A stretch of DNA of 53,073 nucleotides from NCBI GenBank assembly GCA_001603455.1, contig LUZA01000004.1, positions 1 to 53,073 of the forward strand, read 5' to 3'. Every line of letters starts with the position of its first letter. Within the stretch, counting starts at the first letter, position 1. A program made the position numbers and the translations under genes. The stretch is from Bacteroidales bacterium Bact_09 (GTDB lineage Bacteria; Bacteroidota; Bacteroidia; Bacteroidales; UBA932). The notes under the pieces were generated by a model. The model was not told the DNA's origin. It searched no databases and saw only the letters and a list, made by a program, of their open reading frames with translations. Positions 20,288-53,073 of this stretch are shown here, in pieces.

Positions 20288-22645
20288 ATGAAGGAAAAGA
20301 CAAAAACAATATTTTGCAAGTGGCTGTGGATTATAGTTTTGATTCCTGTGGCAGGACTCATCCTTATGTTGTTCCTGGTAGGTGCCTTTACCAATATACC
20401 CTCTTTCCGGGTACTGGAGAACCCCAAGAACAACCTGGCCACTGAACTAATATCTGAAGACGGTGTGGTCATTGCGACCTTTCACGTGGAAAACCGTTCC
20501 TATGTACAATATGAAGATCTTTCAAAATCTTTGATAAACGCCGTTTTAGCAACGGAAGACATTCGCTTTTACCGTCATTCGGGCATTGATTTTCGTGCCC
20601 TGGCCCGGGTTGCGGTCAAATCCATCTTGTTGGGGCAGAGTAGCTCGGGAGGGGGCAGTACGCTTAGCCAGCAGGTAGCCAAGACGTTATATCCCAGGGA
20701 TACGACCGTTCACAGATTTCCGGGTGGTGCTGCCGTCAAAATGTTGGTAATAAAAATGAAAGAATGGATCACTGCCGTAAAACTGGAGCGCAACTATACA
20801 AAAGAAGAATTGCTAACCATGTACCTGAACTCGGTATTCTATGGAAGCAATGCATACGGTATCCGGACAGCCGCCTCGACCTTTTTTGACAAGCATCCTT
20901 CACAGCTGACCATAGAAGAAGCGGCTACCTTGGTAGGAATAGTGAACAAGCCCACCCGGTACAATCCCGTATTGAATTATGCATCTTCCCTGCGCAGGAG
21001 GAATCATGTGATATCGCAAATGAGTAAATACAAATTCATTGACCGGCAGGAAGCAGACTCCCTGATGTCGCTGCCGATCATGCTGAATTATACTACCCAG
21101 GATCACAATGCCGGGCTGGCTCCATATTTCCGGGATATGCTCAGGCGGGTGATGAGCGCCAAAGAGCCAGAAAGAAAGAACTATACCTACGAGGAACATT
21201 ATCTGGAAGATCTTGATCTGTGGGAAAACGACCCCCTGTACGGATGGCTGAACAAGAATCTGAAACCTGACGGATCTGCTTACGATCTGGATCGGGACGG
21301 ACTGAAGATCTATACCACCATCAATGCCCGGATGCAACTTTATGCCAACCAGGCCATCGAGGAACATCTGGGAACATACCTCCAACCCACTTTTAACCGG
21401 GAGCTGAGGTATAAGCGCAACAAACCATTTTCGAACGATGTTCCGGCAGAAGTGCTGGATCTTGTAATGAGACAGGCTATCCGTTGGAGTGACCGTTATC
21501 GTAATATGAAGAGCGACGGAGCCGGTGACCAGGAAATTGACAAGGCTTTCAGAACAAAAACATCCATGCGGGTGTTTTCCTGGAACGGAAAAGACGGGAC
21601 GTATGCTACAGATACCATGCTTACCCCAAGGGATTCCATACTGCATTACAAATCGTTCCTGCGTGGGGCAATCATGGCAATGGAACCGGGAACGGGTCAC
21701 ATAAAAGCCTACGTTGGGGGGCCAAATTACAGGTATTTTAAATACGACAATGCCAGTCAGGGAAGACGGCAGGTGGGCTCTACCATCAAACCGTTCCTGT
21801 ATTCACTGGCCATGCAGGAAGGCTGGACGCCCTGCGATGTGGTGGTCAATGTGCCACAGACCTTTATTGTGGGAGATACGACCTGGACTCCTGAAAGCGT
21901 TGACAAACCCGAATGGATCGGGAAAAAGGTCACCCTCAAGTGGGGACTGACCAAAAGCAGCAACAACATTTCGGCATACCTTATGAAACAGTTCGGACCC
22001 GAAGCGATGGTGACCATGTGCCATAAACTGGGAATTAAGAGTCACCTGGACCCTGTAGTATCGCTTTGTCTGGGACCGGCGGACCTGCGCCTGTACGAGA
22101 TGGTCGCCGCTTACAACACTTTTGCCAATAAAGGAGTCTATGTAGAACCATTCCTGGTTACCCGTATTGAGGATAACAGCGGCAACCTGCTGGGATCTTT
22201 CAGTCCACGCAAACGGGAAGCCATAGGGGAACATACTGCATATCTGATGGTAAACTTGTTGCAAGGGGTAGTCAATGAAGGTACGGCCATCAGGATACGT
22301 GCCCTGTACCTGCCGCGGGGAACAGTGGCAGGCAAGACAGGGACTACCAACGATCAGGCAGACGGATGGTTCATGGGCATAACCCCCAGACTGACGGCTG
22401 GCGTATGGGTGGGGGCAGAAGACCGCCAGGTGCATTTTGAATCGCTTGCCCTGGGAGGCGGGTCCAATATGGCACTACCCATTTGGGGTATATTTATGAA
22501 AAAAGTTATGAACGATCCATCGTTGGGATTTTCCGAGGAAGACCAATTCACTGCGCCTCCGGGATTTGATATTTCCCTGAACTGTGATGGTTCTGACCAG
22601 GATATTGACCAACAGCAACGCCGGATAAACAACTTTTTCAATTGA
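20288..22645 (+). CDS. Class A penicillin-binding protein 1A
   Basis: This is a bifunctional peptidoglycan glycosyltransferase and transpeptidase. The 785-residue protein has an N-terminal membrane anchor (about residues 14-35). The GT51 domain has TEDIRFYRHSGIDF and GGGSTLSQQVAKTLY. The transpeptidase domain has GSTIKPF (SxxK), SSNNIS (SxN) and KTGTTNDQ (KTG). It ends in a short Asp/Gln-rich tail. Its stop overlaps the ribosome entry region of ddl, and the three-gene unit PBP1A-ddl-prmC looks like one operon. Confidence 0.95.
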   Translation: MKEKTKTIFCKWLWIIVLIPVAGLILMLFLVGAFTNIPSFRVLENPKNNLATELISEDGVVIATFHVENRSYVQYEDLSKSLINAVLATEDIRFYRHSGIDFRALARVAVKSILLGQSSSGGGSTLSQQVAKTLYPRDTTVHRFPGGAAVKMLVIKMKEWITAVKLERNYTKEELLTMYLNSVFYGSNAYGIRTAASTFFDKHPSQLTIEEAATLVGIVNKPTRYNPVLNYASSLRRRNHVISQMSKYKFIDRQEADSLMSLPIMLNYTTQDHNAGLAPYFRDMLRRVMSAKEPERKNYTYEEHYLEDLDLWENDPLYGWLNKNLKPDGSAYDLDRDGLKIYTTINARMQLYANQAIEEHLGTYLQPTFNRELRYKRNKPFSNDVPAEVLDLVMRQAIRWSDRYRNMKSDGAGDQEIDKAFRTKTSMRVFSWNGKDGTYATDTMLTPRDSILHYKSFLRGAIMAMEPGTGHIKAYVGGPNYRYFKYDNASQGRRQVGSTIKPFLYSLAMQEGWTPCDVVVNVPQTFIVGDTTWTPESVDKPEWIGKKVTLKWGLTKSSNNISAYLMKQFGPEAMVTMCHKLGIKSHLDPVVSLCLGPADLRLYEMVAAYNTFANKGVYVEPFLVTRIEDNSGNLLGSFSPRKREAIGEHTAYLMVNLLQGVVNEGTAIRIRALYLPRGTVAGKTGTTNDQADGWFMGITPRLTAGVWVGAEDRQVHFESLALGGGSNMALPIWGIFMKKVMNDPSLGFSEEDQFTAPPGFDISLNCDGSDQDIDQQQRRINNFFN

Positions 22646-50816: not shown

Positions 50817-52337
50817 ATGTTGGTAAAGGCATACGGGAGTGCGGTGTGCGGTATAGAAGCGATCACCGTTACCATAGAGGCAGATGTTTCTCCCGGCATC
50901 AATTTTCATCTGGTAGGATTGCCCGATAGCGCTGTACGGGAATCCCAGCAACGAATTTCAACTGCAGTACATTCCGTGGGGTTGCGTATCCCCTGCAAAC
51001 GGATCGTGATCAACATGGCCCCTGCAGATATCCGCAAGGAAGGATCGGCTTACGACCTTCCCCTCGCTCTTGCCGTTCTGGCAGCTTCGGAACAGATCAG
51101 GGCCCCGATGCTCGGCACAACCATATGTATGGGGGAACTGGCGTTGGACGGAACGCTGCGCCCGATCAGGGGGGCACTGTCCATGGCCCTTCATGCCAGG
51201 GACAACGGATTCAAAGCCTGTATTTTTCCCATGGAATCGGCTCTCGAGGCTGCCGTGGTCGAAGACATCAATATTTACGGAGTGTCCCACCTGGCACAGG
51301 TATTGGACCTGACTGAAGGGTTCGGAGGGGTTCCCGTGCTGGAAAACGTTCCCGGGATACATAACAGCCGGCCGCAGCCCCAACATCCCGATTTTTCACT
51401 GGTAAGGGGACAGGCACAGGCCCGGAGAGCGCTGGAAGTAGCCGCGGCCGGGAGTCACAACGTGCTGATGACCGGACCGCCCGGTGCGGGAAAAACCTTT
51501 ATGGCACGCTGCCTGCCGGGAATCCTTCCGCCTTTATCCCGTGCCGAGGCCGTGGAAACCACCCGCATCTGGTCTGTAGCCGGGGTACCCCGGGGCGAGA
51601 TCGGCCTTATGAGCATCCGACCCTTCCGAGCCCCGCACCACACGGCATCGGTCATTTCCCTTACAGGAGGAGGCTCCTCGGCCCTTCCCGGTGAAATATC
51701 CTTGGCGCACAACGGGGTCCTGTATTTGGACGAGCTGCCCGAATTCCAGGGACGTGCGCTGGAAGTCCTGCGACAACCCCTGGAAGACGGGACCATCCAG
51801 TTGTCCCGGGTACGCTACAAAGTGTCGTATCCTGCCCGGTTTATGCTGGTAGCCTCGATGAATCCCTGTCCCTGCGGATTCCGGGGACATTCCTCCAGAC
51901 CCTGTGTCTGCACGGAATACCAGGTGCAACGCTACCGGAACCGGATCTCGGGACCACTGCTGGACCGGATAGATATCAGACTTTTTGTAAAGCCAGTAGA
52001 AGTGGAAGATTTAATACCCGGACAGGGGCGTTCACGGGAAGTCGAATCTACCGAATCCATTCGCAAAAGAGTGGAAAATGCCAGGAATATCCAGCAGGAA
52101 CGTTTCAGGGAACAACCCGGAGTACATACCAATGCTCATATGGATGCGGGACTGCTGCCTCGTTATTGCAGCCTGAATCCTGCTACGCTGACTTTTCTGA
52201 AAGAAGCTGTTTCCAGACTGCATCTTTCGGCCAGGGCGCATCACCGGATCCTGCGCCTGGCCCGCACCATAGCAGATTTGGAAGGATCTGCTGCCATAGA
52301 GATCCAGCACCTTGCCGAGGCAATACAGTATAAGTGA
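50817..52337 (+). CDS. comM: YifB-family Mg-chelatase-like AAA protein (ComM)
   Basis: This 506-residue protein has an N-terminal Lon-like domain (MLVKAYGSAVCGIEAI), a Walker A GPPGAGKTFMARC near residue 222, and a Walker B-like YLDELPEF near 305. A C-terminal zinc cluster region is CPCGFRGHSSRPCVC. ComM is a helicase-like protein that aids branch migration during transformation. No good -7 is visible; GATATTTG at 50767-50774 has one mismatch, so the gene may share the kinase transcript. Confidence 0.93.
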   Translation: MLVKAYGSAVCGIEAITVTIEADVSPGINFHLVGLPDSAVRESQQRISTAVHSVGLRIPCKRIVINMAPADIRKEGSAYDLPLALAVLAASEQIRAPMLGTTICMGELALDGTLRPIRGALSMALHARDNGFKACIFPMESALEAAVVEDINIYGVSHLAQVLDLTEGFGGVPVLENVPGIHNSRPQPQHPDFSLVRGQAQARRALEVAAAGSHNVLMTGPPGAGKTFMARCLPGILPPLSRAEAVETTRIWSVAGVPRGEIGLMSIRPFRAPHHTASVISLTGGGSSALPGEISLAHNGVLYLDELPEFQGRALEVLRQPLEDGTIQLSRVRYKVSYPARFMLVASMNPCPCGFRGHSSRPCVCTEYQVQRYRNRISGPLLDRIDIRLFVKPVEVEDLIPGQGRSREVESTESIRKRVENARNIQQERFREQPGVHTNAHMDAGLLPRYCSLNPATLTFLKEAVSRLHLSARAHHRILRLARTIADLEGSAAIEIQHLAEAIQYK

Positions 52338-52418
52338 TGCGACCCCGTCGTTAGCAAGTATGATGGCTGCCTGCTGGTCTTCAAGGCGGTGCGCCAAACG
52401 CGTTTGACGCGTATAAAA

Positions 52419-52447
52419 GGCGCTGCTCCGCAGCACCATACATTTTT
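52419..52447 (+). terminator. Weak terminator after comM
   Basis: GGCGCTGC (52419-52426) pairs with GCAGCACC (52430-52437), seven of eight positions, loop TCC, followed after five bases by five T (52443-52447). It lies 81 bases beyond the comM stop. Confidence 0.45.
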
Positions 52448-52481
52448 ATGGCTGCTTTGCGGGAGGGTGAACTGCATTGTG

Positions 52482-52580
52482 GGAGGGTGGTAAGTAGCAG
52501 TGCTGTTGCAAAAATCAGCAATGCGTTCATATTGTATGAATTACAGCCGTTGGTGCTATTTTGGCTACTTACTACCCTCC
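52482..52580. repeat. Inverted repeat IR1, 17 bp arms
   Basis: The arms at 52482-52498 and 52564-52580 pair over 17 positions with one G-T wobble, around a 65-base spacer. The left arm begins within the second GGGAGGGTG copy. Confidence 0.75.
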
Positions 52581-52695: not shown

Positions 52696-52756
52696 CACCA
52701 CAAAGAACCGGGAGCTTTTGTGGTATGGTATGCAGAGGCTCCCGGTTCTTGTGGTG
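52696..52756. repeat. Inverted repeat IR2, 19-20 bp arms, with an alternative pairing
   Basis: The arm at 52696-52715 pairs with 52738-52756 over 19 bases with one unpaired A. The 22-base loop contains TTTGTGGT (52717-52724), which can itself pair with ACCACAAA (52697-52704) in the left arm, so two mutually exclusive folds exist. Confidence 0.75.
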
Positions 52757-52766
52757 GCAGAAAAAA

Positions 52767-52887
52767 GGTACAACGTACACATTGTTCGTTTGCCTCATTA
52801 TCAGCCATTTGTGAAATTCAGACCCCCGGGGCACTATTTTCTTAACTCTTTGAATATCAGCCAAACGAACAATGTGTACGTTGTACC
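52767..52887. repeat. Perfect 26-bp inverted repeat IR3 around 69 bp
   Basis: The arms at 52767-52792 and 52862-52887 are exact reverse complements over 26 bases (left arm begins GGTACAACGTACAC). The spacer is 52793-52861. There is no flanking duplication, and no T-run follows on the plus strand. The element ends 68 bases before the -7 of the next gene. It could be an invertible switch, a small transposon-like remnant or a stable RNA hairpin; the sequence alone does not decide. Confidence 0.8.
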
Positions 52888-52955
52888 CTAGTCTCGCACT
52901 TCATTCACTAATCATATTTATGTAAAATATACTTGTCAAATAGTAAAATATAGTT

Positions 52956-52963
52956 TACATTTG
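52956..52963 (+). promoter_or_regulatory. Promoter of the last gene
   Basis: TACATTTG (52956-52963) has a TTG (52933-52935) 20 bases upstream, fitting the Bacteroidota promoter well. It ends 27 bases before the ATG at 52991. Confidence 0.65.
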
Positions 52964-52990: not shown

Positions 52991-53073
52991 ATGAAAAGAA
53001 AAAGAATTCTTCTTCCGCACAAATTTCAGATTATTGGCTGGGGCATGTTTTCCTTGCTGGCAGCACTATCCCC
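52991..53073 (+). CDS. N-terminus of a membrane protein, cut by the window edge
   Basis: An ATG at 52991 opens a frame still open at the last base (27 complete codons). The product begins MKRKRILLPHKFQIIGWG and then becomes hydrophobic, the start of a membrane helix. This N-terminus resembles a group of Bacteroidota membrane proteins of unknown function. Its upstream region is the inverted-repeat-rich stretch and a well-formed promoter. Confidence 0.65.
   Translation, partial: MKRKRILLPHKFQIIGWGMFSLLAALS

Follow-up and report, generated by a model that had tools for sequence, protein, structure and literature searches.

A perfect inverted repeat at the end of a Bacteroidales contig raises the question of whether such a structure is a genetic switch, a mobile element or a signal acting at the RNA level. 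The stretch of DNA analysed here (hereafter the window; 53,073 nucleotides) is the whole contig C7 of the 1.93-Mb draft genome of Bacteroidales bacterium Bact_09, which is 96.7% complete. A preliminary description had reported two perfect 26-bp arms around a 69-bp spacer, a match judged far beyond chance, and no clear TAnnTTTG in the spacer; it weighed a recombinase-driven promoter switch, a small transposon-like element, a terminator or RNA element, and a remnant. The geometry was borne out at 52767–52887 (arms 26/26 complementary, spacer of 69 nt), and since the runner-up among perfect inverted repeats spanning up to 600 nt measures only 13 bp in the whole window, chance is excluded as the source of the arms. 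We also agree that the spacer has no clear TAnnTTTG.

The repeat and its locus

The 121-bp element is the last of four palindromic repeats that stand in a row 3′ of a YifB/ComM-type gene, upstream of a membrane-protein gene that starts at 52991 and is truncated by the contig end (Table 1). The promoter of this downstream gene lies beyond the element (TTG at 52933–52935, TACATTTG at 52956–52963). Relative to the family consensus, each arm tip of the window copy bears two substitutions, and these are mirrored in both arms.

Table 1. Features of the window at and around the inverted repeat (positions are those of the window).
Feature	Position	Strand	Remark
YifB/ComM-type Mg-chelatase-like ATPase gene	50817..52337	+	upstream of the repeat array
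Dispersed palindromic repeat (i)	52369..52466	.	
REPIN-like inverted repeat (ii), 17-bp arms GGAGGGTGGTAAGTAGC, 99 bp	52482..52580	.	
Hairpin repeat (iii), CACCACAAAGAACCGGGAGC...	52696..52756	.	dispersed in the genus
Whole element, probably REPIN/TIR-type	52767..52887	.	near-symmetric; best match to family model R1 on the - strand
Left arm GGTACAACGTACACATTGTTCGTTTG	52767..52792	+	
Left-arm tip mini-palindrome GTAC-AAC-GTAC	52768..52778	+	family consensus GTGC-AAC-GCAC
Sub-arm motif CTCATTATCA	52794..52803	+	recurs in the palindromes of RAYT-like loci in other genera (L071, L093)
Central-hairpin remnant CCCCCGGGG	52823..52831	.	terminator-like in many other copies, decayed in the window copy
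Sub-arm motif CTGATATTCA, right half	52851..52860	-	
Right arm	52862..52887	-	exact reverse complement of the left arm
Right-arm tip mini-palindrome	52876..52886	-	
Bacteroidota-type promoter TTG...TACATTTG of the downstream gene	52933..52963	+	outside the repeat

At the orthologous locus of genome G007, repeats (ii), (iii) and the element follow one another as in the window, while that of G011 has (ii) and (iii) on a contig that stops where the element would start. None of the four repeats is found in G004, where no more than about 80 bp separate the comM stop codon from the promoter and downstream gene known from the window. Given this difference between G004 on the one hand and G007 and the window on the other, the insertions of the array were gained in, or lost from, part of the genus.

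The other three repeats also occur elsewhere in the genus. Repeat (i) has about 25–35 matches each in G001, G003 and G012 and few in the window's own genome; repeat (ii) has two copies in G008 (at L135), and GGTAGGAGGT-type repeats similar to it flank a different Y1 gene of ~300 aa in G006 (L088); repeat (iii) has near-perfect relatives in G003 and G012 (L213, L133).

Distribution, fold and tips of the family

A first DNA search retrieved a second copy from the same genome (on C38), copies from seven sister genomes of the genus and, outside the genus, one marginal partial match. With a covariance model, the family of ~121 bp was found in 12 of the 13 genomes of the genus (the match in G005 being marginal, E = 0.009) and in none of 48 others from the family and order; copy numbers, about 5–20 seen per genome, are lower bounds, as part of the candidates was scored. 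The preliminary description had proposed looking for further copies in the same genome, and held that a single copy without conservation in close relatives would speak against a switch and a mobile element alike. The genome turned out to hold five loci (one on C7, three on C38 and one on C15), and the relatives hold many.

The arm pattern also occurs in named records, i.e., the Bacteroidales MAGs WOFB08 and UBA1374 and Rikenellaceae bacterium DTU002. Phage and plasmid collections yielded no relevant match to the element and Rfam nothing credible, its miRNA and U12 matches lying far below the cut-off, as any long hairpin gives. Two viral-contig matches and three from BP5.bin30 were not counted, because they have the core arm letters alone in common and differ in outer arm and spacer: L052, L058, L060 (BP5.bin30), L064 and L065 (IMG/VR) are long palindromes sharing only the CATTGTTCTTTT core, and the two IMG/VR contigs (205 kb and 113 kb, respectively) carry one hairpin of this kind in opposite orientations. 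Finally, the element occurs in two records labelled as other phyla, L049 (JAQVAJ010000172.1, Clostridia) and L062 (JAHDNZ010000018.1, Bacillota); the agreement of L062 with the C38 copy and its flank suggests misbinned contigs.

The best copies fold into a cloverleaf, in which the arms form the outer stem and enclose a pair of short hairpins of the CTGAnnnTCAG type as well as a long central hairpin tipped by C5/G5. In an alignment of 25 copies (A1), which was not fitted to the structure, although the structure was drawn from one of its sequences, 27 of the 54 pairs show change on both sides. Cells with both-side changes number 103, against 55.9 in shuffles (none of 500 shuffles was as high), and shifting the partners by 1–3 columns lowers the pairing from 83% to 34–45%.

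Tandem copies have one terminal tip palindrome in common, GTGC-nnn-GCAC serving two elements at once (L042 1954–2184; L157 3943–4173). Across 85 copies collected with their flanks from the genus, the two tips of a copy are identical in 40, compared to 24.5 when permuted (maximum 33). This within-copy agreement, like the mirrored tips, would fit hairpin-templated correction or arm-to-arm conversion, and one of these two processes has probably kept the arms of the window copy perfect and its substitutions mirrored.

Transposase genes and related systems

Searching the genus with PF01797 (Y1_Tnp, IS200-like) brought up matches near element copies. In G007, a gene of 265 aa (C9:21073–21867) has one copy upstream (20834–20956) and another over its 3′ end (21836–21958), while its orthologue in G011 (86% identical) is preceded by an arm and bears two tandem copies at the 3′ end. 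The G007 protein scores above the PF01797 cut-off and carries an HuH motif (THIH) 55 residues from the tyrosine motif (YILRNP); a C-terminal HTH match is weak, the match to the NCBI REP-associated tyrosine transposase model falls far below its cut-off and a PDB sequence search with the transposase gave no meaningful match. In G009, the palindrome flanking a 55% identical gene is related to the element but distinct from it, with ATGCGTYGCAT tips. Moreover, other genera of the family have RAYT-like genes set between palindromes of their own (e.g., L071, L074, L091, L092, L093), mostly of 105–135 bp with arms of 20–38 bp, whose arm sequences are unrelated. A palindrome with arms of at least 18 bp is present at 14 of 30 RAYT-like loci, against 0.33 expected from shuffles, a figure that overstates the contrast, since 7 of 20 control loci of the genus (several of them picked for holding repeats) are positive too.

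Neither the window's genome nor G001, G002, G003 and G012, all of which have copies, possesses the close RAYT gene, so that the link with the element rests on G007 and G011. The window copy is probably an orphan, since no Y1 gene of its genome comes closer than 31% over about 110 aa. One distant Y1_Tnp gene there (G000:C13, L045 3732–4613) is of another type, with 293 aa and a score below the Pfam cut-off; palindromes with 18–33-bp arms lie 1.8–3.1 kb upstream of it, and it may have a repeat family of its own.

Over the 85 copies, no target-site duplication emerged for lengths between 2 and 12, and complementarity of the flanks past the arms is only slightly above chance (3.59 vs. 3.27, sd 0.16). 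At face value, the size, the perfect terminal repeats and the dispersed copies would suit a MITE mobilised through its terminal inverted repeats by a classical DDE transposase. This origin is nonetheless very unlikely in view of the missing duplication, of internal hairpins that covary, which recognition of the ends by a DDE enzyme would not need, and of the bracketed gene, which encodes a Y1 transposase.

Among known systems, REPINs consist of two REPs in inverted orientation and have a cognate RAYT; a clover fold has been proposed for them (PMC3116915). The family resembles the REPINs and RAYTs of Pseudomonas and E. coli (PMC3116915) in its two conserved ends inverted around a short spacer, its hairpin or clover fold, its compensatory changes, its dispersed extragenic copies, its tandem clusters, its copies beside a RAYT gene (in G007 and G011, not in the window's genome) and its lack of target duplication. 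It differs from REPINs by its three internal hairpins, its arm tip palindrome, its few copies and the lack of a conserved GT[AG]G foot (GTAG/GTGG at the third hairpin in 19 of 150 aligned rows), and its transposase differs from REPIN-associated RAYTs by the THIH and YILRNP motifs and the HTH-like C-terminal end.

In TIRtrons (or TIRYTs), described mainly outside Bacteroidales, a RAYT-like gene lies between long inverted repeats that have no relation to GTAG REPs; some of these repeats are self-complementary, they can be moderately abundant elsewhere and the flanks may overlap the 3′ end of the gene (PMC3733652). Our family likewise features a tyrosine transposase gene flanked by long non-GTAG inverted repeats, while the GGGGWSAS motif, common but not universal in TIRtrons, is absent from the arms examined. 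As for the Bacteroidetes TnpA-REP subclass 2.6 (RAYT group 5), "atypical secondary structures" flank its genes and have copies elsewhere in the genome, and its marks are NH[LIV]H, WQ, YIH[QN]NP and a longer HuH-Y distance (PMC6006769). Host phylum and structure-flanked genes with copies elsewhere are shared with this subclass, in contrast to the G007 motifs (THIH; YILRNP rather than YIH[QN]NP), HuH-Y distance (55 residues vs. a median of 82) and protein length (265 vs. 179 aa). Owing to the unconserved GT[AG]G foot and to a transposase that departs from the subclass 2.6 motifs, the element is REPIN-like or TIR-type rather than a canonical REPIN. A text search, with most subscription journals outside its scope, found no paper joining RAYT with Bacteroidales.

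Gene ends, terminators and orientation

Only 14 of the 85 copies lie inside reading frames of at least 90 aa, compared to 84% of random positions. By simple reading-frame calls, rather than annotation, 33 neighbouring gene ends fall within 3 nt of an element edge with the stop codon abutting (orthologues included), and 11 further reading frames enter the element to end at its own stop. Part of this preference for 3′ ends could come from the compactness of the genomes and from selection against insertions that break genes. A tie to one cargo gene family was rejected, as the 135 neighbouring reading frames form 92 clusters, and an apparent class of ~400-aa neighbours was an artefact of flanks cut at about 1.2 kb.

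One element of G007 (L176, on C3) stands exactly between two convergent stop codons, while the orthologous site lacks it in G001, G004, G011 and G012; in its place, G001, G004 and G011 have an ordinary hairpin followed by a T-run. Furthermore, the central hairpin passes as an intrinsic terminator in 64% of strand-copies (shuffles: 8%), and in 45 of the 85 copies it does so on both strands. Such figures, together with the adjacency to stop codons and the position of L176 where relatives have an ordinary terminator, are what one would expect of a structured RNA or terminator kept for its function and spread by duplication or recombination without a dedicated transposase. We consider this account highly improbable, because it leaves unexplained the bracketed transposase genes, the tandem copies that share a tip and the transposase-specific palindromes of other genera, and because the window copy has kept its arms without a terminator centre: it scores 5.7 on one strand, below the threshold of 12, and has no terminator on the other. 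Thus, the terminator and remnant options of the preliminary description are right in part: the central hairpin is terminator-like in many copies, and the window copy has lost it.

The nearest relative of the window copy is the orthologous copy of G007, at the same site and as reciprocal best match, yet inverted (58/69 positions agree in the inverted sense vs. 41/69 in the direct one). Two more loci fit inversion better, but the copies there are not mutual best matches, so that conversion or re-insertion is equally plausible, whereas most other orthologous pairs have kept their orientation. These inversions, along with the perfect arms, are the best case for a recombinase-driven switch, in which the spacer would flip between the arms to turn the neighbouring gene on or off, and Bacteroides surface-gene promoters do invert between short perfect repeats upstream of a membrane-protein gene. 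Unlike these, the element has no inner promoter and no recombinase nearby, and it belongs to a dispersed family sitting mainly at gene 3′ ends. The downstream promoter lies outside the element and is conserved in the element-free G004, and flipping a spacer of near-complete symmetry would change little. In keeping with the preliminary description, Pfam scans of 42 of the window's 44 reading frames of at least 120 aa revealed no recombinase. The promoter switch that this description had put forward is therefore very unlikely, and the inversion in G007 sets two species apart without being evidence of phase variation.

Altogether, the 121-bp repeat is probably a non-autonomous mobile palindrome of the REPIN/TIR type, which a RAYT-type Y1/HuH single-strand transposase would copy in trans. 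This reading, drawn from genome comparisons, is founded on a dispersed, structured and genus-limited family, its copies next to a RAYT-type gene in two sister species, distinct palindromes at related genes in other genera, an element-free orthologous site, placement at gene 3′ ends and the lack of target-site duplication. Accordingly, the small transposon-like option of the preliminary description is supported by the dispersed copies, the element-flanked RAYT-type gene and the element-free site. IS200/IS605 enzymes insert without target duplication. By analogy, the transposase would recognise the arms and hairpins on single-stranded DNA and insert copies in the same manner; insertions would survive where genes stay unbroken, i.e., at stop codons and between convergent genes, where the central hairpin may act as a two-way terminator. 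With its decayed centre and no close RAYT in the genome, the window copy is an old insertion and probably immobile. Hairpin-templated correction or arm-to-arm conversion, or conversion by another copy, could have produced the inverted orthologue of G007.

REPIN/RAYT systems are known mainly from Proteobacteria and, for Bacteroidota, the literature consulted offers little past "atypical secondary structures". The family described here adds a concrete system for the latter phylum, with a covarying cloverleaf, palindrome-bracketed transposase genes, orthologous insertions and one inverted orthologue. More tentatively, and with considerable doubt, RAYT-moved palindromes of Bacteroidales might be portable two-way terminators, which land at stop codons, replace the native terminator between convergent genes, equalise their arms by hairpin-templated correction and, in the course of evolution, become inverted at the same site. 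The adjacency to stop codons and the replaced terminator make it testable whether such elements shape gene 3′ ends and transcription termination.
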